DNA of 64,000 bases from Mesodorylaimus sp. YZB2_4 (lineage: Eukaryota; Nematoda; Enoplea; Dorylaimida; Dorylaimidae). The stretch lies in assembly GCA_030248295.1 (NCBI GenBank), contig JASANH010000389.1, positions 1-64,000 on the forward strand, in the 5' to 3' direction. Made by a program: the position numbers and the translations under genes. Below, one piece after another: positions 2,783 through 57,003 of this stretch (positions are counted from its first letter, which is position 1; every line of letters starts with the position of its first letter). The notes beneath the pieces were generated by a model. The model saw only the letters and a list, made by a program, of their open reading frames with translations, was not told where the DNA came from and did not search any database.

Positions 2783-2911
2783 TCATGCAATTCTAAATTT
2801 CTTCCCACAAAAAGCGAATAGAGGCAGGAAAATTATTTCGAAAACTGATATGGCACATAGGCTAAGCCAGGTACCACTGTTGGCGAAAGCATCAGAAACC
2901 AGTTGCGACAT
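2783..2911 (-). CDS. Gene A last exon: TM2 and short C-terminus
   Basis: The exon codes for 42 residues after a TTATTTCAG acceptor. It holds the pre-TM2 stretch SQLVSDAFANSG, then TWLSLCAISVFE, aligned with the canonical G-L-W-x-G-x-S-x-L-S-x-x-E of DEG/ENaC TM2, and a C-terminal tail of about 10 residues. The selectivity-filter G-x-S is replaced by S-L-C; the Ser after the filter and the Glu of TM2 are kept. Confidence 0.85.
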   Translation of the reverse strand: MSQLVSDAFANSGTWLSLCAISVFEIIFLPLFAFCGKKFRIA

Positions 2912-5900
2912 CTGAAATAAGAGGACGTGACTGAATTAAAGAAAACCCACTGAATGCTAGTCATTTACTGAATACTGAGCATATGCCTCCATTTCCGTGG
3001 TGGTCACTGACCCGTAGTATACATCGACGCGGCTGTAATTATCTCTGAAAAAAGCCACAGCTCAAGCAGAGGAATGTGTTCAGCCAATGCAATTTGCATT
3101 GTAATCTTCTGTATAACATGTATGAACTGGAAAGACCCACCTGAAGTCATTGATACATTGGCTCCGGTTGGTGCCTCGGTCCTTTTCACATTTTGGTGGC
3201 TAAAAATACAGTATTCCCTAATGTTACCGTACTAGAAAGCGAAGCTATTCTTACAGTCCATTGTTTCGATGGCCAAATGGCTTTGGTCTGCACGAAGTTG
3301 AATGTCGCAGCCCTGCGTCAACAGAACCTTTGGCTCTCTGAATTTAATGTTATTAAAACAACTGTAATTCCCAATTTGGGTTGCCAGGCTGGATAAACCA
3401 GCAAATCTGTTTTATTCGTGAGTGTGCACGCCCGGCCTAGAGTATTATCAGTCCCTGTTGCCACTGTTTAGTATCTTGCTTTGGTCTGCATGAAGATTTG
3501 TCGCAGCCGTGCGCGAACAGAAACTTTGATTACATTAAATTCAATGGCCACTCAAAGTCCAAATTCTGGCGTCCAGGATGGATCTTAATTCTGACTTTTA
3601 CGACCACCCAACAGACTTGGGTATCCACGTTTGAGGTGCAGATGTCACGGCACGTTTACCTGCATGGAGGCTGGCATTTGCAATTGGCCATCGTGATAGT
3701 ATTCAGCGACTTGGATGATGCTGTGTCGACACACTGCTCTGGAAAATGAGAGCAGTGATAGAGAGACAGTAGATTCACACTTTGTGTGCTGTAACATGTT
3801 CAGAACCTGATCCTTAGCTCTACTGAACAATCCGTGCCTGTTTATTGTCTCAGATATTCTGTACTATTGTGTTGCGATAGCAGCAATGGAAAACTGATAT
3901 ACTGTAGCGTACGTAAGGCGAAAAGACGTGGCTGCATACTTTCAGTCAACTTGCAGTAAACATTGCCAGGTGGCAACGGGTGACGCGGATCGCCGCAATT
4001 GCAAGTATCCAACACGAAACGCTGATAACAACTTCCCATGCAAGTCTAAAAAGGGTCGAACTTTCAGCAGAAAAGATGCTTGTTGCTTGGGCAACCATAC
4101 CCAGCCCGTGCCCCGTGAGAAAACCCGCATTCGAAAGCCTCCCGCCCCATAAGACCTCTCCTCGTTTGTCGACTCCGGATGGATGAAGGGTGAGTCACCC
4201 ACCACTAGGCGTGCAAGTCGCAGAAAGAACTTCACCTAGTTCTCAGATGGTCAGAGTTGAACTCTGCCATTGACTGCTATAGGTCATTGTGGTCTGATGA
4301 GGCTCGCTTGAAGTTCGCTGTGGCCGTACCTTATCCGTATTTCATCGAGGTCTTCCAACAGTGCACATCCTGAAACGTACCTCAAGCGTGTACGACTTGT
4401 TGGTATAATAGGCGGGTGCCTTTGTTGTAGTGTTGGTGTCGCAGGGTGTATATGGCTCACCCAAACGAGTGCTAGTAATCTGCGACATAAAAAATACTGT
4501 ACGGCTTGTCTAATTATGTAGATTCAGGATGTAGTACTGTACCTTCTTGACATCCAATGTGTAATGCTGGCCAGGTGAACAAGTTATTCCGGAAATGGAC
4601 ATCAGCGGATGCTCGTCAGGTTCGTGTAAGAGGATTTTATAACCAGATGGCAAGACGAATGGCAAGTAGTCATTGGACGGTGTGTGGAATATGACCCGCA
4701 GTCCGAGTTTCCGGCCACCACGACGTGTGAAGTGAGTGTTCGCTATGGGATTGAACATAAAGCAATTCCCATAACTTGGATCGAGGAATGTCGAGATTTC
4801 TCTGAAACAGAGGCACCAAATGGTAAGTAGTTAGGCACCTACTGTAAACATTTAGTGCACGGATACCGAAATTTGCCAGAATTTCCTATCGACAGTAAAC
4901 AGCTGCTACGAGATCACAGGTGCACAAATATCACTTGGAGATTTCTCTGTCTTTATGTCACAGCAGCACGCCGGATACGGACATGTGGCTTGCTGATTCA
5001 ATGAGTCCTAAGCAGGAGGATCTAGCGAAGAGGCTAATATCGGAGGTTACATTGCCCCAAAATTCGGCACGTTTACAGAGCTCATATAAAGTGAACTAGC
5101 CTGCCTTCGCCAAGGCGTCCTCGTGACATAGTAAAATTATTCAGATACAATTGCGCAGCAAACTTTGACTAGTAATGGGTGCCCAGCTTACACGTACAGT
5201 GTGTATTTCCCGCGTGAGATTTTGTGGTCTGCTAAAATGTGTCAAGTCATCCTTTTTTAATTGTTAAACAAGATGTGTGACCTGTCTTGGGACGCGCCTA
5301 AATCTACGGATAAGGCACCTCTAGGACAGATATTGTGACACGTTCTAAATTGGTGTCTCAGCGTTGTCCCAAGCTGCTGTCCTAAAAAGTGCTCTGAATT
5401 CGTACCCGTCGTGAAGGATCGCATTGTGAAACTGGCCCCTGCTGATTGTGAGTCTTGTGCTATACCTGCTATTGTGTATCTTACTCGCCCAGTAACCTAC
5501 CAGCCCAGCTGCATAGACTACTATGCGCCAGCGTTGTGCTCGCTCGCGTATGCCATCCATCTGTGGCATAGCCTCTCTCTCTTCCCATTTGTTCATATCC
5601 AAAGCTGGTTTCATCGGCACAAGATATTCTGGCTGTACCAGCCACTCCCAGCCTGGTAAGGCGCCTTTTCTAGGATTGGTGGGGAAAGAAATCGATCATG
5701 CGGCCAATTGGAACAGGATGTTATTGCGCATAAGATCTATTTTCCATTTTCAATGGGTGTCAGCTTCTGTAGTTTTCCCAAAGCCATCAAAAACAGCTTT
5801 ACATATCGTTTTGAGCTTGATAAAGATTCAGCTTCTTGGGCTGCACGTTGAATCACGTAATGCTAGGAAATTGTGAGCTGTAGTAAAATTTCTTAGTAAA

Positions 5901-8900
5901 ATTGCAAACACAGAGAAGCTTTGTTGCTGGTGCCGATTGTAAGCAAAATTATTTGTCCAATCAATGTCAAAGTCAGAGCCAGAAAATTTACAATTCCTCG
6001 CAGGTCAACGGTCAGGTCAGAAAGTGTTTTAGTGGCCGGTCAAGGTCAAGGTCGGGTTGGAAAATTTTTTGAAGGGTCAGTCAAGGTCAGGGTCAGGTCA
6101 GAAAGTTTTTGAAGGGTCGGTCAGGGTCAGGGTCAGGTCAGACAGTGAAAAACCCAGATAACTGGAACACTAATAGTAAACAACCGCTAGGATTTCACCA
6201 AATACGCGCATATCACTTGAAGATTCTCGTCCTCATGGCACGTAGCTGCATTCCCAATGCAGTCATGGGAGATGATTGTTTAAGGAGCGTTCAGCAAATA
6301 GATCGGACAAAGAGGTTTTTTTAGAGATTACATTCTTACAAAACATGCGTAAAGTGTGTCCCTGCGCGCATTTAGCCGCCTAACACAAGGGTCAGTATTC
6401 TTTGAATGGCGAGAAATAAAGTAGGCGACTGCAGAGGCACAAAACTGCAGAGTCAACTCGCAGCTCCTCGGCCAAGAGCATCGAGCCCAGCGCAACGAGG
6501 CCACAACTGGACTGCGACTACTATACCATGCACCATATCGTGCTATGGCATTCCATAGCGCAAACTAGTGCCTAGGTAAAAATCGGTTTGGCGATCAAAT
6601 GGCCAACTAAATGAGTAAGGGTTGTCGCTCCGAAATTTCCAATCACAATATCGAACGAGTTGCGTGCCAGTTACAATCATAGTTCAAGACAAGGAGGAAC
6701 CACGAAATCTTGAATTTCCAAGCGAACCTCGTGGGACGTCTGCTGTATATATGAAGTCTGCATTGGCTTCTGTGCGAGTATGTCTGCGGCAAAAGATGCC
6801 AAATATTCAAAAAATTGACGGAAATATAGAAAAGGGGCAGTAAGTTATTCGGGTAAGGATTCTGAATTTTTGGAAGACAGTGGATCGTACGAACAGTTAG
6901 ATCGATGGTTTTTTAAGCCCCGAATCGTCGAATTTTTTTCAAATAAAGTTTTGTGGGTTGGGCTTTGTACCGGCCCAGTTCCCCACGGGACCTCCAAACC
7001 GTTTTCTCTCTCACGGCAGCTTCCCTCTGTGTCTCCACTAGGAGCACGTGCACACGAGGGCATCCTGTGCCAGCACCAGCGTGACCGGTTCCCACTCTGA
7101 GAACAGGCTTACTAAACTTGCCGTCCACCACAGCCGGAACAGAACTGTGGCCTCCCGGTCAGGGTTGCTGGCCCAAGCAATGCGGGACCAACGCCTTCAC
7201 CAACTGAGCCACGGCGGCTCGATACTGTCTTATGCTTTCGTTTTTTGAACCCACAATCTGTCCTGTTCCGCTTGTAAGTTGCCACCAGTCACACCTTACA
7301 ATATATGCAAGGCTGTGCGTAGACCAGCAAACACAAAGCAGCATCCTTTGTGCGGTTCCGCAAGAGAACCTCCCACGAGAACATTCTGGAGCAAGCACCG
7401 ACTGCATTTGGACGATGACGGATGGGCTGTGTGCCTTGCCGTATTCGACAGCCGAGACAGTGAGCGACACAACCCATTGGAACGCCAAAAAATGAGCAAG
7501 GACTTTTTCAGACAATCATCGATTTTGACAGAGGATGGTTCTTGTAGCCTTTAACTTGGGTAGCTGTTTTGAGCTAACCAATCGATCGATCAATTGGAAT
7601 TTTACTAGCACATCTTCATCTATCGACCTATTAACTGCATCTGTATTGTGATTACCTGTGCACGACAAAGCGCCTTGCCAAGGCAGTAAAAAGTAGACAA
7701 ATGGCAAATAATTTTTGAGAGAGATCACCAGATACGAATTTGATTGGGAAAATCTGGGATTATATGGCTCGACATTCTTAAGAAAAAAAGATTAACTAAT
7801 ACTCTTAAATTCGAGGACTTATTCTGACAACACACATTAAGGGTACGTCGGACAATTTAATTCAATCATTTGAAGCGCTTGTCAACGCTGTCAAGGATAG
7901 GGTCTGCAAGGGCGCACCCTTGTCGAATTGATGTACAGTACATGAAAATTATGAGGCGAAGTTGCAAGTGTTTTAGTTGGTCGCAATATTAAGTTGATCG
8001 CGATCCGTCAGCATTTTTAAAGGAATAACTGACATAAAATTAAGCGTCGGTGCATTTTAAGCCTGACCATGTCAGCAAGTCAGACATCCCAGCTTGAACA
8101 TAACGGATCACTGTGACACCGCGGGCCGTCGCCAGCGTGCTGAGAACAAATGCCAAACAAATGCTTGACGGAGGGTATTGAACGTGTGATAGCTTACCTT
8201 TTGAAATCGCATGGCCGACCAGCGTAGTTACACCAGAATATTATATCATTCACTTGATATCCAAGGGGGCTGGTTGGCGTCCACTTTTGATTATAAGAGC
8301 TCATTATGAATGGCAACGCATCTTCCATTTGGCTGGCCCAATGAAGCCAGCCTGATAAAGCTTGTGGCTTAAAAAGGAAATCTGTATGGTGCACGCGTTC
8401 ATTTGCTACGTACTGCGAGCCGCTCGAGGAATCTAAGTCGTATTTCGTAGGGGAGAGCAGCCAAGCTTACCTGCGGGGTGGATTTGAAATACTTATTGCC
8501 ACGGGAGGCTGACACGGTAAAGTTCGTGACTGTCAATTCTGAAGTATTTCTTGTCTCTTCGCTACGTATGGTTGGCTGAAGTTTCGAATCCACTGAAGAA
8601 ACAGTCGAAATATATGGCGCGGCTTCACTCAAATTGGTCTGCTTTGAGGATGTGCTAAAGGGAAAATTATTGAACTCTGTACGTTCTGAAGCAAATATGG
8701 CATTGAAGGAATTGCGACTAACTTTAAAGCAAAATGATCGGTTTGTGGTCTCTTGAAGGTGATGATGTCATTTCCAGCCTGCTCTAGTTGTGGATTGAAG
8801 GTGGAATGAGACTCTCCATGGTTTAGAGACGCCGGCGAGCCGGAAATAGCGTCAGAATTTAAAGAGTCCGACAGTGGCGGGCTAGGGATGTTGTATGGAT

Positions 8901-11900
8901 TCTTAAGAATTGCCGAAAGCCGTTCTCCGAGCGAAAACGAAGAAATCATGGGGCCGCCCGATGCAAAAAAGCTGTATGGGCCTTTGGGTATTGTTGTTAT
9001 AGTAGCTTTTGTTGACTGTGTTCTCAAACCTCGAGGAGATGAAGCACTACTAACTTTCGCATCTGAAATCAATGCGTTGACTGAAATATCTTGAACATCC
9101 TGACCTGTTGCAACTGTGTCGTCTATTCTGGATATTTGCCTTGCTGCAGCTGTTGTGTACCCTCGCAACGGCGAAAGCGCTCCCAGAGAAGAATCGTCAC
9201 TTTCTGAGGTACGCTGAGGTGTGTTTCCCCAGTCGGAGGTGTCCGTAATTCTATTGCCTGTTTGCGTCAAAGTTACGCTGCTTTTAGCGTTAGGCATTGG
9301 CGCATTCGTGCGGCGCCGCAAAGCTCGAGGTCTCGTCGACGCATCGATTTTGTAAGACGCGATTGAAACCACCCTCGATGGAAAATCGGGAGAAAACGCA
9401 GCTGGGATTAATTCACCACCACGTTGCATCTCAGAAACGGCTGAACTGGCCTTTGTTGGCTTATTGTAAGACAGAGGTTGGGACAGAGCTTTTGGCGCGC
9501 CGAAGCCAGAGGCAGGCGACTGCACCATTGTTTCTGTAGTATTCCTGGAATTCTTTTCTAAATTAGGGTCTATGGACCTATTCGGGAGTTCAGGTATTGT
9601 TGATACCACTTCAATCGGGTTGCCTTCAAACAATACACTCTCTATTTTTATATTCGTAGTAGCCGATGGGTCGTGATCTGATGATGGCACAGGCTCTTGC
9701 GGAAGAGAATGGCTGGTATGCGAAGTCGGCTCAGATCTAGGCCACTTGTTGTACATGTCTGACTCGACTATCGGCGGTGTACTTGCTGGATGTTCGGCAT
9801 TGTTCATCACATCAGAAGGAGGAAGAGTCCTTTGTGCACCGGTTTGCTTTCTAGTTGTACCTACGAATGGTGGGGTCAGCGATAAGTGAGGGATAGTAAG
9901 ATATGATGCAACTAGACCAGCAGATGGTATGATACTTGTTGTATCAGCCCGACCACTTGTTTGGTCCATACCCAATCCCTCCTTTGCAAATGTTGCTGGG
10001 GCTTGGATGGGTGCTCCAAGCGTATCAGTACTTGAAGACAACTCAGCTGTATGAAATGGCGGCGTTGGATTTGGTGTTTGTACCAGTTGGGTAAGAGTCC
10101 CAAGCTCCACTAGCATGGAGGTTGTTGGGATGAATGCTGTGATTTCGTCCATGTTGGGATCTATACCTTCCGAAATTGCATTGTTTGATTTAGTAGAGAG
10201 CACGGTGGTAAGTCCAGGAGGGACTCTTTCAAGCATCAAGCCGATCGCTTCATTTTCTGATGGCGCTGCCTGGAGGGTAATTGTGCTTGTTGAAGCTTGT
10301 GAACTCTGCTGGCTATCGGCAGCAGTTGCACTCGCGCTCATTGGAAATCTTCCATTTTCAGCTATACTTACAGGCGGCCTAGTCCTTTTTCTTTTCACGC
10401 CAGACATGCTGGCTGGAGCCAAGGGCAAAGTCAAGCTAGTCTTGACATTTTCTGATACAGTTCCTTCGAGCGGTGTATTCATCTGGTAGGTTGATTCAAA
10501 AGCCGATGACGAGTATACTTTCGCAAACATTGCAACTTTTTCCTGCTGCACTGAGGGCAATCGCAGATCCGATGTCACAGGGCTAGTGAGCACTGCGAGA
10601 GTATTCGACGAAGATAGCTGTGCTGATGGATATGCTGGGGGCATCGCTGAATTATCTGCCGCTGTAACCGAGGGCGATGTGTCTGCAAAAGACGTCGATA
10701 CTGAAGACAATGTTTCAGATACAGAGCCGACAGGTATGGCGTTGAGTGAGCCGCTAGTGAAACTTTTCGATGTTGATACAGCAGGAGTTGCAGATGCCGA
10801 TACGTTATTTGCCAAAGATACAGTCTCCAGCGGAATGAGCGGAGTTTTAACAGCCGGAGCATTGGTCACTCTGTCACTGTTTGCGAGCATGCTCGTTGTC
10901 ACACTTTCAAAGGGCAAAGAGTAACCTGAACTTGCTAGAGAGGTAAAATTTGGGAATTCTGAGACCGCTGTGCCGCTGTCTGTGGGGCCAATTAAACGGG
11001 CCCTAGGCATGGCCTGTGACACAGCTGTGCTGGCTGGAGTTGTCTGAAACAGGCCACTGACTGCCGACAGCACTACGGTGGAGTGAATCACGGCTTGCGA
11101 TGAGCTGCTCACTCTGGCATTTTGAAGGGCTGTGCTTGACAATTGAGGCGAAGGATTCATAGCCGAGCTTGAAGACAAAAGTTGTATTATGGAAGCTGTC
11201 GAGACGAAATCCTGAGATCCAGTTGAAGCGACGGTGGTTGCAGAGGACACAGAAGTCTTAGCTGCCGCTGTCGGGCTCTGTGTTGCATTTTGCATGGAAG
11301 CAATAGAAGGTGGCTGGAACTGGGATGCAGTGCCTATTACCGCTGTCGACTGCTTCATGCCGCTTGAATAAAGTAAAGCGAGAGTGCCTCTCGGGGAGGA
11401 TGCTATAAACGTTGATGCGGCTGTAGCTGTACTCAGAGATGTTGCGAGTGGTGACATTGAGGCATCTGCTGATGGACTGGTAGGGGGAGTTGTGGTGGCA
11501 GAAATAAGTCGTCCTGATGTTATGCTAAGTGTTGTTGGCCATCCAGTTGCCTCTTGTTTAAGTGTAGTTGGCACTGTCAAAGTTGAAGGTATTGTTGCTG
11601 CTGTCCACGTCGCATTATAAACTGGTGACGTGAGCGGTGGTGTTGCATTAGTCAACAAGACATCGCTTGTTGCGGCAGAGGCCGCCGATGAGCTGCTTGT
11701 AGGACCCACGACAGTAGCCACGTTTGAATTTGTGGCCGCAGGCGTGCTTGTTGGATTTGAAGGATCGGTGATCGCAGTTGACACCTCACTGGCGGGGACT
11801 ATCAATGTAGGATTGGGGGCTGGAGTTGTCACGAAAACAGGCATCTCTGATGTCGAAATGCCAGCCGTGAGTTTTGGCGATATTATCGATGAGGGTTGGA

Positions 11901-14900
11901 CACTTGATGCGACGGCAAATAAAACAGACAGTGCGGTTGACATTTTAGATGTACTTGCAAAAGAGGTAAGTGTTGACGGAGGCACAGCTGGCGTTTGCAT
12001 CAATGATGCTGATGGTGAATGTGTCGTTGTCGGAATAGAAGCTGGTGCAGTCTTGGACGCCATGCTTGATGCACCTTGCACTTTGGTTGATATGCCTATT
12101 GTGGTGGGCGACTGAGCTAGCATTGCTGATGTATCTGCAGATGCCATATATGGAGAGGCGAGTGAAATAATGCTGACTGTGGCAGCAGGCAAAGACGTGG
12201 ATGGTGAAGCGGAAGACAATGCAGGAGATGTGGAGGAAACTGTCGATTCTGGCTGGACGATTGCTGTGGCTGTGGAGGTGATGAGCGGTGAAGGCGTGGT
12301 CGAAGATGATGGTGAGGATACGGACCTGACTGAAGATGCCGCTGTAGTTGTTACCACTGCCGTTGTAAGTGGAGAAACGGATTTTGTGGTTGTGCGACTT
12401 GTAGTCACTGCGCTAGTTGTTGGGGTTGGCACTGACGGAATTTCGCCAGGTGTAGTTGTTGTCGATGAAGCTGTACCAGATGTGGGACTTGGCGCTGTGG
12501 GAAACGCTGTGCTTGCCGCCATTGTGGCTGCATTTGTCGTCGGGACCATGGATGTTGGAAGTGTGCTTGTTGTTAGAATGATTGCCGTTTGTACTCTGGT
12601 TGTTGTGATACTATTGCGAGTAGTTGTTGATGCCATAGTAGTCTCTGTTTGACTTGTACTTGTTGGGGTGACACTTGCAGCTGGCACGGTGGAAACAGCC
12701 TTTCCTGTAGTTACTTTTTCAGTGCTCGTTGTTGCAAGAAGTGTAGCAGTTGGCGAAGTGGTGATTGCCATGGCTGCAGTTGTTGACAAAGTTGAGATTG
12801 TGGTTAGAACGATGGTTGCTAAGGAGGATACGGGATTTGATGCAGTTGTGGCCGATTCTGCAATTGTGGTAATCGTTGATTTGACCGTTGCTCCCAAGGA
12901 TGTAGTTGCAGTGGTATTGGCGTCCTCATTCGAAGCTGTTGGTGTGGTTGTTAGATTGGTTTCTGCTGTGATAGTTGTTCGAGTGGTTGTGAGTGGCCCT
13001 GTAAAAGCATTTCCAAGTCTATAAACGAGTACTTGTATTCTTATGCCATTGGTTTTTATATCCTTCTGGATGCTACAGTCACCATGCGGACAGTACGACG
13101 GCAACTTTCAGGAATTTATTTTACCAATTCTTCCAGTAGATGTGATCCCCGTTGAAGACGTGGTTGTTGAAGTGGTGCTAGTCCTTTGAGTTGTGGCTGT
13201 TGAACTTGTGATGGTTGTTGGAATGGAGGGCAACGTTGAACTTGCGGGTTTTGGAGAGGTGCTAGTCGCTGGAGTGGGGGCCGTCATTGGAAGGGTGGTG
13301 GTTGTTGAAGTTGTGGTGGTCGTGGGAGCAGTGGTGGTCTTCGAAATGGTGGTGGTTGAGGGTGTGGTGGCCGTTGGAGTTATGATCGGCATTGAAGTGA
13401 TGGTCGTCGTCGGCGTGATGGTTGTCGTTGGAGTGGTGGTGGTTGAGGGTGTGATGGTTGTTGAAGTGGCGATCGTCGTTGGAGTGATGGTTGTCGTTGG
13501 GGTGGTGGCGGTTAAGGGTGCAGTGGTCGTCGTCGAAAGTGTGGTAGCTGTAGCAGCAGTGGTGGTTGTGGTTTGAGTAGTTGCCGATATAGTAGTTGAT
13601 GTTGTCGTCGTTGTAGTGGTTGTAAACAGCTCTGCAAATGCAATAGTGTGATGTTGACTCTGTGATGTTGATGTACAACTAATTCACATCTTCATATCTT
13701 CATATCTGCATATCATACATGCATGGGCCAATGGCATTCCAGCCTTTCATGGAAACAATACTGTTCAAAAGAATCGAGCGAAATCTTTTTTCCACAATGG
13801 CTAGTCGGCAGCCTGATGCGCCATGACTACTTAGGAGCTCACGGGTACACTGCTATAATCAAGAATACCCCACAAAAATAGTGCTGTTGCTAGTAAAGCA
13901 TGAAAGAAGAAAAAAGGTCTAGCATGCCATGAGAAGAGGTCAAAAGGTTAAAAACTAACCTCTATTGAGAAGCCTCCCAGCATTGTATGCGTACGTCGTG
14001 CGAGTCTTTCGACCATATACGAATACTGTGTACACAGCGCCAGCATCAGGATGTGTTATTTTGAATGATGCCGCCTCAGATCCGCAAGGAACTTGGTAAT
14101 AGTAGGCGCTGAAGGTAGTTCCAGGAATCGCATTCGCGGTCAGGGCGCCCAGAAACGTTTGTCCATTCAGCAACAATCCAGCCGCCTTTGCTGGATCGAT
14201 AAGAACAGTGAGCCAATGCTTGCTGAATGGACCCATGCAGGAGAGGACAAAATAGTCTTTTGTGTATGCATCGATGGGAGGAATGATTAGCAATGAGGGG
14301 TCTGAGCTCTCCTCTAAATAAGAAAATGTAAGTTAGTAGTGTGATGCTGCCCTGATCAAACGATCAAGGCTTAGGGACTTACGTGAGTAGTCATGCGAGT
14401 TCATAATTTGCAAGACAATGACTGGGTTGTCAGCAGTCAACAAAGAATACTCATTCTGCCGTGTGAGTACATGCCGAGACTGGCTTTTGTCGAGTGTGAA
14501 TGATTCACTGGAAATGCTGCCTGTCCTTGTGATTGTCGTCCCATTGACAAGCGCAACCACCTTGAAAAATTCGTATGACTTGGTGCAAAAAGTAGCATCG
14601 ATGCAACAGTTGGACCATGGCATGTCGTCGTAGATATGTTGGAATGGCACCAAGGCGTGTTCGAGACCCCAGGATACGATTGGCGGAAGCTTAAAAAGAT
14701 TGACTGTATAAAATTACCTAAGAAGAGTTGTGAGCGCATACACATTTTGACTGGTAAAATTTGTCAATACACTTATGAAAGTCAAATCTGGCTTGTAATA
14801 TGTGTGCATGGTTACAGTATGCTTATGGTATATTATAAGATTACCGATGACAGAAGCCAACCCCAGCAATTGGTGTCCTCGAATTCTTGGGGTTCCAGAC

Positions 14901-19292: not shown

Positions 19293-19308
19293 TCTCTTAC
19301 AGTAGAAA

Positions 19309-39196: not shown

Positions 39197-41544
39197 TCAT
39201 TTTGTGCAAGCGAGCTGCAACGGCAAGACAATCACTTCGATCACTGAAACTATGCATAAGCTTAACCAAAGACCGAAATTGGCGAACCAGTCGGAAATTA
39301 AATCTGATACCTAAAATATAGTAAACTGAGAGAACATTTTTTCGCATTTGAACGGTGACTTATTGACGCACTGCGTATTGGGCGTATCCCTCTGTATTAA
39401 TACTAGTCATCAGGCCGTAATACACGTCTACTCGGCTGTATGTTTTCCTGAAGCAAAAACACTAAAATTGATTGAAACAATTCCCGTTATTTCAATCGCC
39501 TCTTATCCAAAGCTAAAATTAGGACTGAATGTGGTGCACACGGCATCTCAAAAGTCTTCGCTCAGGCGCTGAGCTGAATTTCAGCGCAAATGCTAACATG
39601 AAAGTGAGATACCTAGTGAAGGGGCAAGGACAGTACTACAGTTTTATTGGTGTTCGTGCCTGCAATTGTCCGCAGGGTTCCTTCGGCACGCCGCACGGTT
39701 CTGGCCAGAGGGTCACTAGCGGAGACAATTGACACAGGCCTCACGAATCCGATAGTCCCAAACGGGAGATGTTTAAGAGGAAGCAATGAGATTTTTAGCA
39801 ATCATTGAATATTGTTTCTACCTGACTGCCATCAGAAAGCTTTACTGAGCTACAATGTTCCACCGTGTATGACAGTTGAAAATCTTGAGCGAGGATTTTT
39901 GGGACTCTCCATGAACAGTATAGTGGAAGCTTACCGAAAACTTTCTTTACAAGCGCTGAGCTGTGCTTCGTTTTTACCACGACACGAGGACGGCTAAAGC
40001 AGAAAAAACCCTGTTGAAAAGAGATACAGTACGCGTGTTGTTCGTCTGCCGAAAATGACCACAGCATCTTCGGTAATGACACGAAAGTTGCTACTTCAAA
40101 ATCAGTTTTCACCATGTATCGAAATCCAGGTTTTCTCACTCTCAATAGACGCATCATAGTTACTATTAAGTCAATGGGAGCGTTATACTGTATTCAAAAA
40201 CTGATCTGCCCAGCCCCGAGTCGAATATTCATTGGAAAATGCATATCTGGGGTCGAAGAAAAACACCTAACCCACTGGTCCACTGGCCAGGTATTTCTAG
40301 CCTTAACCAACGCATAATTTGAAATTCAGTCAACTCACTTTAGAAATTTCTCCTATTTACTCGATGATGAATTACCTAGCCGTAGATTTTCGTTATTTTT
40401 AAAGCAACAGGACTGAGGCGGCTGCGCTGGACTGAATTCTTGATTCGCATGTCAAGATCGAAGGAAACTGTTGCATACTTACAAAAAATCCAGGCGTTGG
40501 CCAAACCGCTTTTGTCTGGACAGCGTTAAACAAAGTAGTTCTAAAGAGAACAGCTCGAGAGATCTGATTTGATGTCTTATTGCGCCAGTCATACCGACAG
40601 GACGGCAAGCAGTTACAAGTTGACACGGAAACGAATTCGGCTGCTAATTTGGCAGCTTCATCCACACAGGTTTCTAAAGTGAAACCATATTATACATACA
40701 TAAAACCCCTCTTGCAAACCTTTGTCACACTTGCGGTCAAATTACAATGCTGGTGATTGGTATTGGGCGGTAATGGATAACGTGGATCACCGCATGCGCA
40801 CATGCTCAGTATCATTCGTTGATAACAGCTCAGCAAACACGCCTGAAGTGCCACAAAACTCAAACTTCAAACTTGATTGAATATTTACGCGTGTACCTCG
40901 ACTGAATACGATTTATTAGAATAGTACATCGGCGAATCGCTAGTTGTATTTGTCGCGCATGGTTTGTACGGCTCACCTGGCAATGTGCTTTTGACCTGAA
41001 GCAGCATCGTAAGACCAGGTTCGTCGTCGTTGTGACTACTCCCTACCTTGCTCATGGAGAAACTGTAGTATACTCCAGCCGAACAGGTGTAACCAGATGT
41101 GGCCATAATTGGAGCCTCGCTTGGCTCATGCAGCAGTATTTTATAGCCCGGTGATAAGACAAATGGTAAGTAGTCAGACGTTGGCGTGTGGAAAATGACT
41201 TTCAAACCGAGGCTTTGCCCCCCTCTTTTTGAATAGTGGGTGCCTGGAATGGCATTGAACGTGAAACAATTACCATAGCTTGGGTCGTGGTAAGTTTTAA
41301 GCTCCCTGAAAGCAAACAATTTTTCAGGTTGGCACTGATTGTGGAAAAATTGCGAGGAAGTTGACGCCTCTGGAACACACTTTTCGATTAAACATGGACG
41401 ACCAGCATATCTGCACGAAAATATGACCTCGCTCATTTGATAGCCAATCCGCTGCAAGGTGGACTCGTTCAGATTGGCGAGTAAGTATGGCAGGGAAGCT
41501 TCCATGGCGCCTGCCCACGACAACTGGTCCGTTTCATTGGTCGG
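39197..41544 (-). CDS. Gene C distal channel ectodomain and TM2 (9 exons)
   Basis: In order: SWAGAMEASLPYLLANLNE with FSCRYAGRPC, DPSYGNCFTFNAIPGTHYS, GEPYKPCATNTTSD, CYQRMILSMCACGDPRYPLP, CVDEAAKLAAEFVSVSTCNC, QTKAVWPTPGFF, a 59-nt two-Cys exon (PSSCRGKNEAQLSACKESF), YSRVDVYYGLMTSINTEG and TM2 ending CTK. The Cys-rich exon is 112 nt against 106 in A, B and D. The filter reads S-L-C. Confidence 0.85.
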
Positions 41545-47500: not shown

Positions 47501-47734
47501 TCGACAGCAATTCCATGTTCGTGGTTTCAAGATGTTCAGTGGGTTCTTCACTAGGTGTTCCAGTGGTTGCGCTAAGTTCAGTTTCTGATTCCACATCATC
47601 ATAAAGCCATAGGGCCTCTCTGAACCGTCTGCTCTTCTCTTCTCGGAACATTTTTTTTTTTTTAATTTTTTTTTTTTTTTTTTTTTTTTTTTTCCCCCCC
47701 TCCCCGATTTCCCCTTTTTTTTTTTTGTTTTTTT

Positions 47735-47772
<38 letters not shown>

Positions 47773-49687
47773 TGCTGGGATTGGCCAGTGTTTTAGAAAA
47801 GGGATGGAATGAAACGTTCTCATTGAAATTGTCATTTCGGTCTATAGTTTGTGTTTCTGGATAGAAAGCAAGCGAAGACAATGGAACTGAGCTCGATATA
47901 GGACTTTCTGATTGCTGGGGATCTCTTTTTAAAACGCCCTTTGTGGCTCATTTTTTTTTTTTTTTTTTCTATATGTCAGGGTTTTACGTACATGGATCGC
48001 TTGGGCTACTGATGACACGACAGTATCTAATGTGTTATGTAATAAGTGGTGATCATTGGCTAACAAGTCCATATTCGTGGTTTCAGCATTTGCAGTGGGT
48101 TCTTCACTAGGTGTTACAGTGGTTGCGCTATATTCAGTGTCTGATTCAAGATCATCATAAAGCCAATCCGAGGTTTCCTCTGAATCCATCTGATCTTCTA
48201 CCTCGCTGGGTGTTTGCCTCACTAACCAAGCATTCATGTTACTCGCCATAGTGTTTGCGATAAACAGATCTTCGAGTTCTGTGTGTATTTCGTACACATC
48301 TGATGTCTCAGTTTGCTCTAGTGTATTCGTCATGGTGATGTTGGTGACCATCTGGAAGCTGCCTGAACTGGCCATTGCTGATGGTGTGGCGCTGAATATG
48401 CTATCGTTTTCACCGGCAAATAAAGCTATAGTGCTGATAGGAACTTGAGTGTCTTGGGCCATGGTGTCACTTTCGGTCATTGATTGTGAAACAAGGGCAT
48501 TATCAGTCATTTGGTGTTCTGCAGAAAGAGCCATCGAACTGTACCCGTGGGATGAGTGAGGAATAAATGTGGTTTTGTTTTCAGGGACTGATATGTTCAA
48601 AGCATCGTCCATTAACGTACTCGTATGCTGCATATTGACATTTTTCACTGGGCTGTTCACAATATTTTGCGTTCTTGGTAGGGCGCTTCCGGTATTTTGT
48701 GCAAGAACGCGACACGCTGTCAATCGAAACGTTTCCACATTTGGCTCCAATGTATAGCTGCTAGTGGAGACTTGCTCATCTGACGCTGGACGTGTACCTA
48801 ATCGTAAGTAGAACGTCATTATACTGTACATATGTAGGGGTAGAGCAGCGAAGGTTTATTTTTGACTTAACGCCCGACTAGTCACTCCGACACCTTGAAG
48901 AGGGAGTACGGAAAACACTGTCGATAATCCTATTTATGAGCAGCCTACATACTTACCACGAGGATGTTTCTCTCGACGTTTCCTTGCTCTGGGTTGGCTG
49001 TTCACATCTTTCAGACTTTCAGTATACATGGATTGTTTCGGTCCGCTGGAGCTTCTCTCTTGGTTAGCTTTAACTCCTGCTCTCGCCAGTTTGCTTGCGT
49101 GCAAAATCTCTTTGCTGTAATCGCCCATCTGCATCATGCATCGATATCAAAATACACAATTCATGAAAAAGAATTTGCGAAAGGGATGTTACTCACATCA
49201 TGAAGCAGCTGTGGAGCATGCTCCAAAATTGCCGAAACTTTGTAGGGGTTCAAATTGCAGATGGAGACTGCAGGAAACTCTTGTGTTTCAGAGTCGATCT
49301 AAAAAATCTTTTATGGCTCCACTGGAACTTTTTTAAATTATTTATTGCACGAGTCATGAAAACAAGTGCAATCAGCTTTGTCCTAACCAGTTGGCCTAAA
49401 CTGGAATTGTATTCGTGCTGTACTGTAAATACTGTGATGAGTAAACGACCTAACAGACAACAGAAAGAGGCCATGTCTGTGTATTCAATTGCACTTACAG
49501 TTATAGAAATCCCGATTGGATATTGCAGAAAAAAGACGACTGATTGAACACTAAATGCCAAAAATACAGCCAGACATACTATGCCAACCAATGACCAGAA
49601 TACTTTCAAGAATATCCTTTCAGCAGATAAAGTAACCGATACAATGCGAATACTCGATTTTATAAACGATTCTTTCAGATTCGTCAT
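39197..49687 (-). CDS. Gene C: DEG/ENaC-like subunit with repeat-bearing mucin ectodomain, no IgGFc domain
   Basis: Exons: 49499..49687, 49197..49298, 48957..49128, a mucin exon from 48797 into the disturbed zone near 47990, a mucin exon from about 47640 to 41601, then 41381..41544, 41047..41305, 40897..40995, 40731..40842, 40595..40673, 40483..40540, 39935..39993, 39372..39447, 39197..39310. TM1 is VFWSLVGIVCLAVFLAF, followed by EFPAVSICNLNPYK. Exon 3 ends RARKRREKHPR (furin-type). The next exon goes straight into Ser/Thr-rich sequence, so the three IgGFc exons are absent; phase is kept because that cassette is phase 1-1. TM2 is FANFGLWLSLCIVSVIE. All exons outside the disturbed zone join in frame; the two mucin exon parts lie in different frames, so that junction is unresolved. 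Confidence 0.8.
41601..47640 (-). CDS. Gene C mucin-like exon
   Basis: About 2000 codons of Ser/Thr-rich sequence without a stop. The N-terminal part has unique Ser/Thr sequence, the centre is a 52-residue repeat array (43990..46930), and the C-terminal 700 residues are more varied with acidic clusters (SELDEEITENDL). It splices at ACG|GTAAGT into the channel exons. The 5' boundary (about 47640) is uncertain because of poly-A/T tracts. Confidence 0.75.
43990..46930 (-). repeat. About 20 tandem 52-residue (about 156-bp) coding repeats
   Basis: The unit consensus reads roughly SSSKLVPKTTGFATEE, then xTTxHETWxPHYTTSISSD, then xxQNIxSSQxxTKQQ. I count about 20 copies by the E-[TSIM]-[WR] anchor, with the left (C-terminal) units most diverged. 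The units stay in frame and contain one aromatic anchor in a Ser/Thr/Lys background. Confidence 0.8.
47640..47990. repeat. Poly-T/poly-C low-complexity zone inside gene C
   Basis: Two long T runs (about 47651..47770, broken by C-rich pieces, and 47952..47968) flank about 180 nt that still read as Ser-rich coding sequence on the minus strand (QQSESPISSSVPLSSLAFYP). The pattern looks like poor consensus at a collapsed or gapped assembly point, though a real insertion cannot be excluded. Confidence 0.6.
47990..48797 (-). CDS. Gene C first mucin exon part
   Basis: The acceptor TTACGATTAG joins exon 3 (phase 1) to GTRPASDEQVSTSSYTLEPN. The segment near its end, WLYDDLESDTEYSATTVTP, is a near-duplicate of WLYDDVESETELSATTGTP at 47540..47625 beyond the low-complexity zone. 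Confidence 0.7.
48957..49687 (-). CDS. Gene C exons 1-3: N-terminus, TM1, FPAVS motif, basic linker
   Basis: The ATG at 49687 gives a 63-codon exon (MTNLKESFIKSSIRIVSV). Exon 2 has QEFPAVSICNLNPYKVSAIL. Exon 3 (57 codons) ends in RARKRREKHPR. The His-Gly position before TM1 reads Arg-Ile. Confidence 0.85.
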
Positions 49688-50315: not shown

Positions 50316-52948
50316 TCATGGCGTAGCTCTTTCACAAAAAACCAAAATTGGCAACAGAAGCAATTCTAACACAGATATCAGACATACGCTGAGCCACAGA
50401 CCGACATTTGCGAACAGATCACATATCACATTCATTATCTAGAAAACGGATATACATTATTTTAAAACAATGCTTGTGCACGACACACTTACCGTGTACT
50501 GCCCATAAGCTTCAATATTCATAGTTGCCATGTTACCATAGTATATGTCGACACGGCTGTAAGTTTTCCTGCAAAAGATTTCACACACCTTACGGAAGAT
50601 ATGATGTAATAATTAACAGAGCATATCATCCAGCATTTGAAATTTTGAGCCCAAATGACGAGTTCCAGTGCGATAATCTGACACTATGCAAAGCTTACAT
50701 GATATTTTTAGCGCAATGCTCGGTATTAGCAGTTTCAGCGTTCTTGCATAATGTGGGCTAAAAAAACAAGATGGGGTCAGTTTTATTATTTGTTTGGACC
50801 TATTGCGGAGTCTTCATCTCTTGGCTACTTCAAATTACAACTGGTGTTCATTATTATAGGGCGCATCCATTCGGAGTACAGGCGCCCTATATATCGTCAC
50901 CAAGAAGTCTATCCACGCGCACCATCATCAGGCAGTGCACATTGGCATCAGGCGGATTATGAGCACCCCTTTAGGTTAATGTGGAGATCACAGTACGGAC
51001 CATGCTTCTCCAGAAGAGGTACCATTCTACTGTACAACATGCCAAACACTGGCGCATAGTAGCAGCATCAAAGAAGCTGACGCTTAGGAGAAAAAAATGG
51101 AAAGTTTGCATCGAGAGTGCATGGATATCATGCCGTGCTCTTGTAACCAGCGCACCCAGGCGGCGGGAGATAGTCGAGACCGAAGTCTCTAAGCAAAAAA
51201 CTCCGATTGGAGATAGGCAAGTCTCGCGACTATACCTGCTCTAGAAACATAAACCGAAGAGGTTGACGTCCCAGCCAGGGGAGCGTATCGATTACTCCCG
51301 ACCGCCAGGCGTGCTGGTCACACTCTGCTCTGACAGGGGTGCGCCGCACTCTATCTGATGGCACTATGCTCTCTGTTGTAAGAAAAAATTTCCGACAGCT
51401 AGTTCAGAACTCTGTGTGTATGAGCTGCATTCTCCAAATGTCGCCTTTGGTCAGTGGATAGAAATGGGATATCCCTGGCTTCTCTTGTCCCGCCCAGAAA
51501 GAACAATTTTTTGGAGGAAAAGTAAGAGTAGGACGCTTGATGTGACAGATACAGTAAAATAAGCATGCACGAGAACAGCATGGCTAGAGGCTGCCAGTCG
51601 TTTTGACCTATGTTTATCGTCAGAGCTCACAGTGTAGTTGTTTTGGATCTCCCATCAGGCTGCTAGTGACAACGGTGCTAAGCCAAGCACCGCTTGTATA
51701 TAAAAATACAAAACAATTGCTCCAAGTTTAGTTCCAAAGACCTATACCATTCCGTCCCGAATTTGTCCATTGTCATCCGTACAAATTACCTACAGTGTTC
51801 CGAAAACAGAGAGACAGGTACACTTACAATCAAAACTTCTCGAGGCCAACCAGCCTTCGTTTGCACAGAAGTGAAAATTGTAGATCTGAAAAAACGGGTA
51901 TTCTGAATCGACAATCCTGGTTGACAATGTAGACCGACTTACTGACAAGGAGGCAAGCATTGACAATGAGACATGGACACGAAGTCTAATGCCAACTGCG
52001 CCGCATTGTCGACACAGGCTTCTGCAAGATTTGCTCAGTAAAATGCAGCCATTGTTTTGCTTCGCATCTTACTTTGTGTAATATTGCAATAATAAGCGCC
52101 TTGGGGTAAAGGACCGCGAGGATCGCCACAACCACATTGCTCTAAGGTCACGCGTTGATGACAGCTCGTAAGACAAGCCTGAGGCAACATGCAGAAAGTT
52201 TACAGTGCTTTTTTTAGCTATCGCACTTTTGACACCTCAGTTGTGTATGACCAATTGGAATACCAAGCACCGTTTACTGTTTCTTTCGTAGAGCATGGCA
52301 CGTATGGGGCGCCTGGCAACATATTCCTCGTCTAGAAAAAAATCATTGCAGAAGGCGTTCAAGAGAGTGTCGCAATGTGACGTACCTTGCCGACAGAGAA
52401 CGTATAATATTGCCCAGCCGAGCATGTTATACCCGACGTGATCACAGTCGGCTCCTCATTGGCATCATGCAACAGAATCTTGTAACCGGCGGATAATATG
52501 AAGGGTAAGTAGTCCGAAGAAGCCTCTTGGAACACCATCTGGAGACCTAATCGTTGACCTGCTCTTTGGGAATAAAGTGTATTAGGCGTTGGATTGAACG
52601 TGAAACAATTTCCATATTTGATATCGGTATGAATTTTTAGCTCTCTGAAAACCCATTCATTCTCAACTGATTTGGACGCAACACAATAAATGCTATGACT
52701 TTGGGCTCATGGTCAAACAGAACCTGTAGCCTGTCGAATGGAGCTTTTCATACTGGCAACTGCTGATGACTCACAGCTTACTTTTCCAAATTGCATGGTC
52801 TTCCAGCAAACTGGCACCAGAACACAAAATCATTTAGCTGATAACTCAAGGCTTTGACAGTCGATTGATTCAAACCAGCCGAGTTGACCAGGTAAGGTAA
52901 CGCTTCTTGCATTTGGCTAGCCCATGGAAGTAAATCTTCAATATTTGG
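50316..52948 (-). CDS. Gene D distal channel ectodomain and TM2 (9 exons)
   Basis: Motifs in order: PWASQMQEALPYLVN and FWCQFAGRPC, KYGNCFTFNPTPNTLYS, GAPYVPCSTK, CHQRVTLEQCGCGDPRGPLP, CVDNAAQLALDFVSMSHCQC, VQTKAGWPREVL, a 59-nt two-Cys exon (PTLCKNAETANTEHCAKNI), YSRVDIYYGNMATMNIEAYG, then TM2 FANVGLWLSVCLISVLELLL. A 1.07-kb intron (50758..51827) holds a short repeat shared with 20880..20940. Confidence 0.85.
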
Positions 52949-55900
52949 CTTTAATTGAAGGCATCGCCAAAGTTTAATCTTTAATGCGCAGATCGCGTGG
53001 TCATACTTACAATACGCATCATTGACCTTAGAGATGTTCTGAGGGTGGATATCGATGCAGCAGATCTTTGATCCCTCGTGATAGGAATTTTGCTAAAACC
53101 TGTACCAAAGCTAGTAGAATGGTTGGATATTGCCTTCTCTGTGACATTATTTTCTTTGTAATTAGAGGACTTTGCAGCAACTGGTGACGAGGCCTGTGTA
53201 AACTTATTAGTGGTTGTATAAGAGCGATGTGACTCGTGCAGAGAAGTTGGAGCAGCCGGATTTCTTGCTGTTGTTGGTGCCCGAGGAAGCGAAGTCAACG
53301 TTGGCGATGGCTGGTCCTTTTCCGTTTCTATTAAAACAAGAACCTTTGTTCAGATGATATCACCGCTATCTATTAGAGAGAGCTTTTTTAAACTCGAAAG
53401 CTATATTGCCCGAAATCAATCAATCGCTAAACAATTTTCGTTGCTCGCGATCAAAACACTCGTGCTCATTCACATTCTAAATTCTACTGACACCAGGCTA
53501 GCATTTTGTTCGAACATATAAATACAAACAAATTATATTTTCGGTAAATTAAATTTCTTCATTTAAAGAGAGCATACCTTCGGAATCTGTGATCGCTGAC
53601 GTGAAATTAATTGTTAGATCTTCCTTTATCGTTGTAGCCAATGTCACCCGTTTTTCGACTCTTGTAGATTTCGTTGCAGTCATTCCGAATGCCCTCAACA
53701 TCTTCGAGGTCTTTATAGAAAAAATATTGTTGTGCGAAGTTGAGTTTGACGCCGATTCAACTAGAATGCGATGACCCTGTACATGTGGTACCTGATATTC
53801 ATACCTACAGGAGCTTCCGCATTGTTGTGACTGATTTGATCAGTTTTTACAGTGGCCATTAAAATGTGAGTTGAAGACACAGTCGGTGTTTTACACTGTT
53901 TCATTAGTTATATCGTACACACTCTCTTACCTGCAGCAATTGGGGTTACTCCGCCGTCGCTAAATCCATCAGAAGACGCTACTAGATCAGGAACTGAATA
54001 TGCTGCAGGCAATGTACTTCTCCTCACTATCTCACGATGACTTTGAGAGGACGCTGTCAATGGTGTCCGTTGGACTGTCACTGTGTTTGGTGTTAGAGAT
54101 GCCTTGAGATGTGTTCGTGCGGTTACAGTTCTTCCAAGCCAGGTGGGTGTTGTTCGTGGCGTCATATGAATTGTATAGGGTGCAGAAAATAAAATACGCG
54201 AAGTAATTTGTGTCGTTTTTGCTGAGTTAGCGTTAGAAGATGATTTTGGTGATCTCCAATAAAATGTTGTATTTGTATGTCTTTCCATTGCACTAGATTC
54301 AGAAAACTCTTTGTGTGATGTCCGATGATCACCAGCTGAAGCCGGTTGAATACTTTCAGCTGCGTGTGACCGAAAAGAAATTGCGGCTGAAACACTCCCA
54401 TTGTCAGACTTGCTGGAGTCATACGCTGATGCGACAGTAGTAAAATATTTTGTCATCGCTTTGTTTGTAACTTTTGTTGCACCTACAGTCCTGCTGGATG
54501 CACTCGCTGATTGTGATCTTGATGAAGTCCATGGTGTGAAGCTACCTGCTGATGCTTGGTACAATACTTTTGCAGTAATTGATGGGCTATGAGTGAATGG
54601 ATGTAGCGACGTCAATGAGATATTGCGGTCTATGGTAAAGTTAAGGGCAGCTTCTTCATCTGCGTTGTCTCCATTGACATCTGTTTGATTGCTTTTCTCC
54701 ATACCCACTTGTCCATAGCAGCCATCTGGTGGATCAGCATCATCTTTCTTGCAAAAGTACGTCGATGGACTCAATAATCGTCCCGCAATGTAGGCATACG
54801 ATGTGTAGTCTCCCATCCCATACACGGTTAATCCGAATGCTACTGTTGGATCTGGATGAGTGACGCTGAATGACACAGCCTTGCCAGCACAAGGAAGTCG
54901 ATACTGATAAGCACCTAAGGAAGTTTGGGGGATAACGTTGACTGGGATGCCTTTCAGGAAAGCGACGCTGTTGAGGAGAAGTTCAGATGATGCGTTAGGT
55001 TGAATCAGGACTGTAATGAAATGTCGATTGAAAAATGGATTGCAGGATGTGAATGAGTAGTGACTAAGAAACGAGTCAATGGGCGGGATAATCAGCAATG
55101 CAGGATCAGATATTTCTCCTGAATATACTCCTGGATATGCTTCATATTATCACAAAATAATCCCATGACACAAACCTGTGTATTTCGAGCTGGCCATGAT
55201 ATGCGCCACAATAATAGGTTTCGACGAGTACAAGAAAGAATATTCGTTTTGAAACGCCAAAACCTCCACTGCTTGACCAGCGTTTAAATTCCATGTCACA
55301 GCGCTCATAACATCCTGGTAATACTTCTGCAAAAATCGTTTCTCAAGGCGTCTGCCTACTCTGTCCACCTTTGTCCCGTCCATCAAAGCAACCACTTTAA
55401 AAAATTCCAGCGGGCTATCGTCATATATTCTGTTACCAGAACATTTGTTTATTTGTTTGGTATTATCTTGATAGAACGGGGTGAGAGCATACTCGGTTCC
55501 GAGGGTTTTGATCGGTGGCAGCTGCGACAGATATGTAAATTATTAGGTATTATTGCTGTGAATTCAATCTCTTACTTGTTCTATGACGATGTCGCAGCCT
55601 CTGCATGTCCCTGGGTACGTGACACAGTCATGGCCAGTTAGAACGGCAACAGCCTTACTCGAGATGATTTTCGTTCCAGATGATTCAGTATTGTAAAATT
55701 CTAATTTTATCACCTCCGTCTCATTAGCGTGATACACGTGTTTCGTGCCATTGATGAAATGAATATTGACCAGTGTATCATTGTTTGTAGCCACCATATA
55801 GACATAGCCTCTGCGATTTTTGCCTCCGCTTTGAACGCCTATGACCATGTACTCCGTGCCCAGCATATCCACTGGGAACAGCAGCGTGCCGTCGGCGGTT

Positions 55901-57003
55901 TGAGGGGCCATGTGCATGCTGTAGACAATAAATTCATTAGAACCTTCAATTTTAAAGCCTGTTGACGCATTTTCTGCAGGCAGCATAACATCGACAGCGA
56001 ACACTTGAGTGTTGTCAATTGTAATAGAGGTTGTTGGCCAGACTCCCTCCGGGTTGGTTATGGTAACTGGAAAGGGAGTGCTTGAAACTGTAGCGAGCAT
56101 CAGTTGCCGTGTTGTCTGCTGACCACCGGTTTTTGATTCAATATCAGGAAAAAATGTTGTATAGAATAATTGCCCCACAGTGTCAGGTAAACCTAAAAAG
56201 AGTACGTTACCGATACTGTAATTCTACAACCCACATTGCGCAAGCTGCCTGTTCTGTGTGTTGGTATCGATCGGCGCCTCCTTCCACGTTCGAATTTATC
56301 CTTGGTCTCGTCAAAGCTATCCAACTCTCCAAGGTTAGCTACGGTATCTGAAATAATGGGGGTTTGTGGTCGAAACGATGGGGATATTTTGTGGTTGGTT
56401 TTGACGTTGTCCTTTTTCAAATTAGCCTTGTCTCTCTCCAGTTTTCCAAGAAGATCATCACTGTACTCTTGTATCTAGAAAATGCAATAATTTCAGCTGG
56501 TTCATACTTACGTTAAAATTTTCATACATGGGCTTACAGTTCTATAAAGCTGGGGCGTATTTTTCAAAATAGATGACACCTTGTACGGATTTAAGTTGCA
56601 AATGGACACTGCTGGAAATTCTTGGGGCCCTGTTTCAACCTAGACAAAAATATTACTGTAACATGGAGCTCTTTACTGTGTTTTGGACAATGAGCATTGA
56701 ATTACACGATACCAAGTCACTCAATGAGTGCTGAGGTTTGGGGCCACCGGTGCAGGTCACCGATTACAGTGGGCTGGAGCACAGTCGAATAGAGCCACTA
56801 GGATACCAACTTACAGTAATGATGCTGCTAGTGGGATATTCAAGGAAATGAAATATCGATTGGCTGAGAAACAAAACAAATAACGCAAAACATATGAGTC
56901 CTATAGCTGACCAAAATAACCTCAAGCAAATTCTCTCAGCAGATAAGATGATTGCTATAATGCGAATGCTGGAGCTCATAAAAGCATCTTTTAGAAGCTT
57001 CAT
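50316..57003 (-). CDS. Gene D: DEG/ENaC-like subunit with IgGFc-binding and short mucin ectodomain
   Basis: Seventeen exons, all phases consistent, about 1402 aa: 56815..57003, 56538..56639, 56231..56474, 55576..56192, 55176..55521, 53931..55118, 53578..53760, 53011..53327, 52782..52948, 52386..52644, 52236..52331, 52073..52178, 51943..52021, 51828..51885, 50699..50757, 50493..50568, 50316..50438. I prefer the ATG at 57003 because it gives the same 63-codon first exon as A-C; an in-frame ATG at 57021 would add six residues. Order: TM1, EFPAVSICNLNPYK, RGRRRR (160-165), IgGFc-binding domain (about 179-618), Ser/Thr-rich region (about 619-1062, spread over three exons), channel fold, TM2 (1363-1402) with filter S-V-C. 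It has the shortest mucin region, and just after the IgGFc domain a degenerate D-x-N-x-D motif. Probably functional; ligand unknown. Confidence 0.85.
53011..54763 (-). CDS. Gene D mucin-like region
   Basis: It spans the 3' part of exon 6 plus exons 7 (53578..53760) and 8 (53011..53327). The sequence is Ser/Thr-rich but less repetitive than in A-C. Right after the IgGFc end comes FCKKDDADPPDG and DVNGDNADEE, which lines up with the intact DCDG/DGDG calcium-binding-like stretch of gene E. Confidence 0.7.
54764..56192 (-). CDS. Gene D IgGFc-binding domain
   Basis: Exons 4, 5 and the 5' part of 6. Motifs: DTVGQLFYTTFFPDIES, TPFPVTITNPEGVWPTTS, LFPVDMLGTEYMVIGVQSGG, GHDCVTYPGTCRGCDIVIEQ, FQNEYSFLYSSKPIIVAHIM, LLIIPPIDSFLSHYSFTSC, YTSYAYIAGRLLS. 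The domain is slightly longer than in A and B and clearly more diverged, yet the phase-1 flanking intron on its 5' side is the same. Confidence 0.8.
56231..57003 (-). CDS. Gene D exons 1-3: N-terminus, TM1, FPAVS motif, basic linker
   Basis: Exon 1 encodes SSSIRIIAIILSAERICLRL and TM1 FWSAIGLICFALFVLFL. Exon 2 has QEFPAVSICNLNPYKVSSIL. Exon 3 is longer than in A-C (244 nt) and ends with the strong basic cluster ERGRRRRSIPTHR, then LRNVG into the IgGFc domain. The exon 3 donor GTTGTA is non-standard but is the only one in the right phase. Confidence 0.8.

Follow-up and report, generated by a model that had tools for sequence, protein, structure and literature searches.

Degenerin/epithelial sodium channel (DEG/ENaC) proteins in touch neurons are believed to open when extracellular tethers pull on them, and in tethered mucins and adhesion G protein-coupled receptors a large, cut ectodomain is held non-covalently on a membrane protein. 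Within the channel family, the Caenorhabditis elegans EGAS proteins are named for a fusion of EGF and ASC domains (PMC10424705), and the GRIP domain of ENaC, with its furin sites, sits between alpha1 and alpha2 (PMC6197857; PMC8791634), the channel being activated by double cleavage (PMC8791634). FCGBP has been called a mucin joined to mucin-2 (PMC9354016). We analysed bases 1-64000 of contig C233 of an animal genome (145 Mb, 1067 contigs), a stretch of 64,000 nucleotides hereafter called the window, all gene models and protein readings being predictions from genomic sequence. The genome has 27 matches to TTR-52 (PF01060), a mostly nematode family, and a degenerin-like region before the first transmembrane segment at one DEG/ENaC locus (L006), both of which suggest a nematode. 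We consider it probable, as one joint reading, that the window holds a tandem array of a DEG/ENaC subfamily in which each complete unit is one gene encoding one polypeptide, and that the predicted product is a tethered mucin, cut by a convertase and built on a DEG/ENaC scaffold that the mucin may gate.

Comparison of the window's open frames with one another yielded at least five exons resembling a first transmembrane segment (TM1) and at least five with an FPAVS-like motif, all on the minus strand, as are all units. Each TM1/FPAVS pair except one, A', leads into IgGFc-like and/or Ser/Thr-rich frames and then into a second set of channel exons. Along the minus strand the order is E (partly outside the window), D, C, B, A' and A, and the array runs past position 57003, the starts of E, F and G lying at about 66.3, 77.1 and 94.2 kb (contig positions). 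An earlier, sequence-only reading had proposed a tandem family of channels carrying IgGFc and mucin segments; the proposal stands for the most part, the family being wider than first described; it applies fully to A and B, whereas C is without IgGFc, D is partly resolved and A' is a fragment.

Genes A (2786..17346, 17 coding exons, 2391 residues, ATG at 17346, TGA after 2786) and B (25055..37608, 16 coding exons, 2590 residues, ATG at 37608, TGA after 25055) splice into proteins free of stops, with GT-AG at every chosen junction. Their domain order is TM1 with the first ectodomain strand, an IgGFc_binding domain, a Ser/Thr-rich mucin, the remaining ectodomain and TM2. In A, exon 1 (17158..17346) encodes the N-terminus and TM1, exon 2 (17003..17104) the FPAVS motif and first ectodomain strand, and exon 3 (16771..16906) a convertase-type site near its end (RNRR, then N); these are followed by three IgGFc_binding exons (15870-15278, 14689-14383 and 14313-13960; together 13960..15870), two mucin exons (12998-8723 and 8654-8471; 8471..12998) and nine exons for the remaining channel ectodomain and TM2 (2786..8367). 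B is built alike, from exons 1-3 (37009..37608, with TM1, FPAVS and, in exon 3, RKRR, then A), three IgGFc_binding exons (36954-36362, 36293-35987 and 35920-35567; 35567..36954), a single mucin exon (29494..34541) and, after a 55 bp intron, nine exons for the remaining ectodomain and TM2 (25055..29438). Pfam on the whole A model found ASC (PF00858) in two stretches (E 6.8e-58, best 128-455) and IgGFc_binding (PF17517) over 1-297 of 297 (E 1.2e-43); the B channel exons without the insert matched ASC over 7-455 of 455 (E 2.8e-66). The single frame proposed earlier, running from TM1 and FPAVS through IgGFc and mucin into channel and TM2, is borne out for A and B by these spliced models, and the two Pfam families foreseen in one polypeptide do occur together in the A model. 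Exons for TM1, FPAVS and TM2 are present in A to D, F, G and the off-array copy C79; spliced, in A and B, they give two transmembrane segments flanking a Cys-containing ectodomain.

Thirteen exons of A have a counterpart of equal length in B (189, 102, 593, 307, 354, 259, 99, 106, 79, 58, 59, 76 and 126 nt); exon 3, the mucin and the post-mucin exon differ. Junctions were selected by a simple donor/acceptor consensus score with a phase check; the chosen junction was the top-scoring phase-consistent candidate at 10 of 16 positions in A and 7 of 15 in B, and the others (ranks 2 to 23) were picked where A and B agree and homologous exons meet. A may have one further Ser/Thr-rich exon (frame 13683-13108). 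Phases match between the two genes except for one additional intron within the A mucin. The earlier statement that phases agree at every junction stands for A and B but not for D, where no good donor was found between exon 3 and IgGFc.

Genome-wide searches, whose match counts (TM1, YGNCF, IgGFc and ASC exons) are lower bounds, placed these genes in a larger family. The B TM1 exon had at least 15 matches, eight on C233 and seven elsewhere (C1 twice, C11, C79, C90, C114 and C387), the YGNCF exon of G at least 16 and the IgGFc profile at least 42 exon matches. Every off-array TM1 match (7/7) has IgGFc and then a YGNCF exon downstream on the same strand, an order for which the DNA was also read on C79 and which comes from match positions only in the other six. 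On C233, six of the eight TM1 copies have IgGFc (not A' or C), six have a YGNCF exon (not A' or E) and five have both. The TM1-FPAVS junction is in phase 0 in 8/8 copies. The intron between mucin and channel, also in phase 0 each time, measures 55 bp in B, 56 bp in C, 94 bp in G, 68 bp in C79, 103 bp in A and, by the second-ranked candidate (the top-ranked is 194 bp), 53 bp in F, and hence 53-103 bp in six of the seven copies examined, D being the seventh. In B, exon 3 and IgGFc lie 54 bp apart, and the IgGFc 3' part shares one open frame with the Ser/Thr-rich part in D and C79; the tiny mucin-channel introns and the shared frames leave no room for gene ends at these junctions.

The same phases bear on whether parts of the insert could be spliced out. 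An in-frame skippable cassette comprising the whole insert was considered and rejected, as in A and B the phase is 1 at the end of exon 3 but 0 at the start of the exon that follows the mucin. By phase, only IgGFc (phase 1 to phase 1) is predicted to be removable in frame, and the mucin is not, in A or B. Elsewhere in the genome, IgGFc matches on C14, C18, C41, C49, C151, C175 and C257 have no TM1 exon match and apparently represent a second IgGFc gene class without channel fusion, and YGNCF matches on C123, C9 and C14 have no TM1 match on the same contig. There are at least 114 ASC exon matches in the whole genome, which on this count carries a large predicted DEG/ENaC set; some long frames show a gap between channel parts (for example on C215, C223 and C617).

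Among solved chains human ENaC comes closest to the B channel, in the order gamma (E 1.6e-44), beta, delta, alpha, ahead of FaNaC and ASIC. B aligns to gamma-ENaC over 54-145 and again over 249-561, with the insert in the interval; this gap, taken with the known location of GRIP between alpha1 and alpha2, puts the insert in the ENaC GRIP slot. SERRRNASEWN of B is aligned with SRKRREAESWN of gamma-ENaC. Exon 3, which ends at the insert, carries R-X-[KR]-R in eight of the ten copies inspected, out of 15 TM1 copies: RNRR in A, RKRR in B, C and G, RRRR in D, RHRR in C79, RLRR in C11 and RMRR in C90, with an additional earlier match in the exon-3 peptides of C79 and C11. Over the whole protein the motif occurs once in A and once in B. 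Motif and alignment together indicate a convertase motif in the GRIP slot, at which cleavage is predicted. Other DEG/ENaC genes of this genome (L006, L004 and L040) have Pro/Gly/Ser/Thr-rich low-complexity stretches ahead of the YGxC block, and L006 has RPRR within its own.

The Ser/Thr-rich segment spans 1487 residues in A (33.8% Ser+Thr), 1683 in B (35.5%) and about 2011 in C (30.1%), and contains no Cys in A, one in B and three in C. Open mucin frames of 1457-2199 residues are also present in F, G and C79. In composition the inserts qualify as candidate mucins, being long, Ser/Thr/Pro-rich and Cys-poor, with putative O-glycosylation. Pfam assigned no family to the B and C mucin frames, and a PDB search with the B IgGFc domain returned two chance-level matches only. 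The A and B mucins also have, in their second halves, LRRR/LRKR tracts followed by Ser/Thr, which may be additional processing sites. After IgGFc in E, F and G there is a stretch of the form DNDCDG...DDDxDGxIDEDL (63451-63903; L022:3184-3858; L023:6945-7619), which resembles a Ca-binding segment by eye and gave a weak MopE match below the Pfam cut-off. Between A and B, the ratio of non-synonymous to synonymous substitution rates (dN/dS, NG86) is 0.25 for TM1-finger (142 codons), 0.24 for IgGFc (418 codons), 0.56 for the mucin (1414 codons; a rough value, with dS at 1.0 and at 1.9 in the second half) and 0.15 for palm-TM2 (342 codons). These ratios show selection on all four segments, palm-TM2 being the most constrained.

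The other units of the window are incomplete or diverged. Gene C (39200..49687) was recognised by frame comparison and contains TM1 (at 49687), FPAVS, exon 3, the mucin and later channel exons to TM2 (at 39200); the IgGFc profile search of the genome, with the DNA also read, gave no match in it. C would thus fit in-frame omission of IgGFc, a phase 1-1 cassette that was either lost or never gained there. The main part of its mucin (41601..47560) covers about 2000 residues with 30% Ser+Thr, and its mucin frame is interrupted by poly-A/poly-G stretches at about 47951-47968 and 47600-47770, where poly-A runs and a poly-G block lie beside an adapter-like stretch. The region looks like an assembly fault and has on its flanks a diverged direct repeat some 100 bp long. 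In gene D (50319..57003) the order is kept, from TM1, FPAVS and IgGFc through a short Ser/Thr-rich part to later channel exons, with the IgGFc 3' part (PF17517 203-297) and Ser/Thr-rich part in the single open frame 53931..55118; a small exon is presumed to lie between 51829 and 50568, and the mucin-to-channel junction gave no clear solution. A' (21439..21768) is a relic in which the TM1 and FPAVS exons, similar to their counterparts in A and B, stand by themselves and contain one stop; no IgGFc or later channel exons were found for it. Gene E enters the window with its 3' part (58046..64000), comprising an IgGFc tail frame (63903-63451) and the final two channel exons (58321-58214 and 58147-58058), and its TM1 lies near contig position 66313; between 58046 and that point neither a long mucin frame nor middle channel exons were found. 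A search for the SL1 family (RF00198) gave no match, its controls being equally silent, so that this is no evidence of absence, and one for Srh chemoreceptors gave one weak match, under the cut-off.

The units could alternatively be sets of neighbours in which half a channel, a secreted IgGFc-mucin and the other half of a channel are merely adjacent. Introns reaching 3396 bp elsewhere in these genes, and units read from genomic DNA alone, speak for this, but the open spliced frames, the order found at every off-array locus, and the small gaps between mucin and channel and, in B, between exon 3 and IgGFc speak against it; we rejected it on the repeated order and tiny introns and regard it as extremely improbable. 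The earlier claim that these are not several neighbouring genes is thereby upheld, the shared frames and a dN/dS below 1 in all segments pointing the same way. A decaying pseudogene array would be consistent with the relic A', the missing middle channel exons of E, the D junction and the poly-A stretches of C; A and B, however, are open over 2391 and 2590 codons and none of their four segments reaches a dN/dS of 0.6, the long mucin frames of F, G and C79 are open too, and decay of the array is very unlikely. Several observations nevertheless weigh against the convertase-cut, tethered-mucin reading. C and D are not cleanly spliceable, and 14 of the 31 chosen junctions in A and B are not top-scoring, the exact exon edges being models. 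In exon 3, E has only RKER and F only RRPR. Shuffling of the ten exon-3 peptides gave an expectation of 1.18 copies with a site (P 1e-6 for at least eight), a figure to be read in the light of copies that are paralogues and not eight independent events, and of exon-3 limits set by eye in E, F, G, C79, C11 and C90. To these are added, as far as an ordinary channel is concerned, two changes at the pore: the filter is [S/N/G]-x-C, not G/S-x-S, in 8/8 copies (SLC in A, SVC in B, SLC in C, SVC in D, SMC in E, NMC in F, NLC in G and GIC in C79), and the His-Gly before TM1 is replaced (SSIR, SSLR, STIR) in 8/8.

The pore motifs raise the question of conduction. At ten other DEG/ENaC loci of the genome the filter was readable in six, of which five are G-x-S, found by a pattern requiring Ser, and one, L008, is G-A-G by neutral inspection; a G/S-x-S filter is therefore not universal among the DEG/ENaC proteins of this genome. 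The pre-TM1 region was readable in four of the other loci, with His-Gly in L006 (whose pre-TM1 region is degenerin-like) and L041, HA in L004 and none in L040. A non-conducting scaffold, in which the DEG/ENaC part would only trimerise and anchor the IgGFc-mucin around a dead pore, is a serious contender to which we give rather less than an even chance. It is favoured by the third filter residue, Cys in all eight copies, by the first, Asn in F and G, by the absence of His-Gly, and by the listing of C. elegans EGAS among proteins without significant current in oocytes (PMC10424705). It is opposed by the low dN/dS of palm-TM2, by the Ser-to-Cys change at the third filter position of alpha-ENaC, for which permeability ratios are tabled and which retains current with altered selectivity (PMC8536179), and by C. 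elegans DEGT-1d, likewise said to be without HG (PMC8536179). The balance tips slightly towards a subunit that would still help to form a modified pore, possibly as an accessory, rather than none. In a further alternative, close to the GRIP gating of ENaC, the channel would open once cuts had freed a short inhibitory tract, and the mucin would do no more than shield or position it. The first basic tract of B (SERRR) aligns with the furin region of gamma-ENaC and the second (RKRR) comes after it, as might be expected of a channel type activated by double cleavage (PMC8791634), but A and B each have a single strict R-X-[KR]-R and the exon-3 peptides share, by eye, no common tract sequence, and we consider this alternative improbable.

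The tethered-mucin reading, which we hold to be probable, draws on features that the sequence shows, namely the domain order, the open spliced frames, selection on all segments, the furin-type site and the altered pore motifs. The polypeptide would have a short cytosolic N-terminus, TM1, a palm strand and a finger helix, and then an insert in the GRIP slot with the furin-type site, the IgGFc_binding domain and a mucin of 1,500-2,000 residues, followed by the ectodomain remainder and TM2. We infer that a proprotein convertase cleaves after exon 3, giving one fragment with TM1 and another that starts at IgGFc-mucin, and that the two would remain associated through the trimeric fold of DEG/ENaC proteins. 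The head formed by IgGFc and the mucin brush would then project from the cell with TM2 as anchor, and the subunit would be a tethered mucin anchored by a channel, in which load or ligand on the mucin could act on the finger, a part involved in ENaC gating. On this view, surface mucins may be attached to an ion channel or pull on it. The functions proposed in the earlier reading, a sensor or a channel scaffold presenting a mucin, are both possible. A bolder version is possible but doubtful: that in a nematode clade the ENaC-type protease slot became the docking place of a 2,000-residue mucin headed by IgGFc, yielding convertase-processed 'adhesion channels' whose trimers would be gated through a mucin tether to cuticle, mucus or host surface, with about 15 genes varying the tether and keeping the channel body. 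If the favoured reading is true, a tether encoded in the channel polypeptide would make the tether-gating idea directly testable, the ENaC GRIP slot would prove able to take up whole domains, convertase processing of that slot would extend beyond vertebrate ENaC, and a surface-mucin family of a nematode would have been named.

The predicted product would resemble tethered mucins and adhesion G protein-coupled receptors in having a large ectodomain that is cut yet stays non-covalently attached to a membrane protein; unlike theirs, the cut proposed here is at a convertase site, and in the A model Pfam matched neither SEA nor GAIN. With FCGBP and other IgGFc-binding proteins it shares the full-length IgGFc_binding domain of A, which here lies inside a two-TM channel subunit. 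EGAS proteins may also carry an IgGFc-like domain. EGAS-1 to -4 are, like these proteins, nematode DEG/ENaC members with a foreign domain fused to ASC (PMC10424705), but EGF is theirs, the passages on them in that source mention no IgGFc or mucin, and the A model, the only one scanned whole, has no EGF match in Pfam at E up to 10. The sequence-only reading had called the architecture undescribed; the EGAS precedent of EGF with ASC limits that claim, foreign domains in DEG/ENaC being known (PMC10424705), while IgGFc or mucin within a DEG/ENaC protein was not found among the titles and abstract starts listed by searches of open-licence PMC papers. Vertebrate ENaC supplies the closest solved chains, its alpha1-alpha2 slot is by alignment the one that takes the insert and the basic site here, and it is reported to undergo furin processing there (PMC6197857; PMC8791634); it differs in that GRIP is called unique to ENaC subunits (PMC8791634) and the slot here is occupied by IgGFc and mucin, and in its filter and His-Gly. 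Fusion of a foreign domain to a DEG/ENaC channel thus has its precedent in EGAS, and what appears new at this locus is an insert in the GRIP slot, a furin-type site before it and an altered filter.

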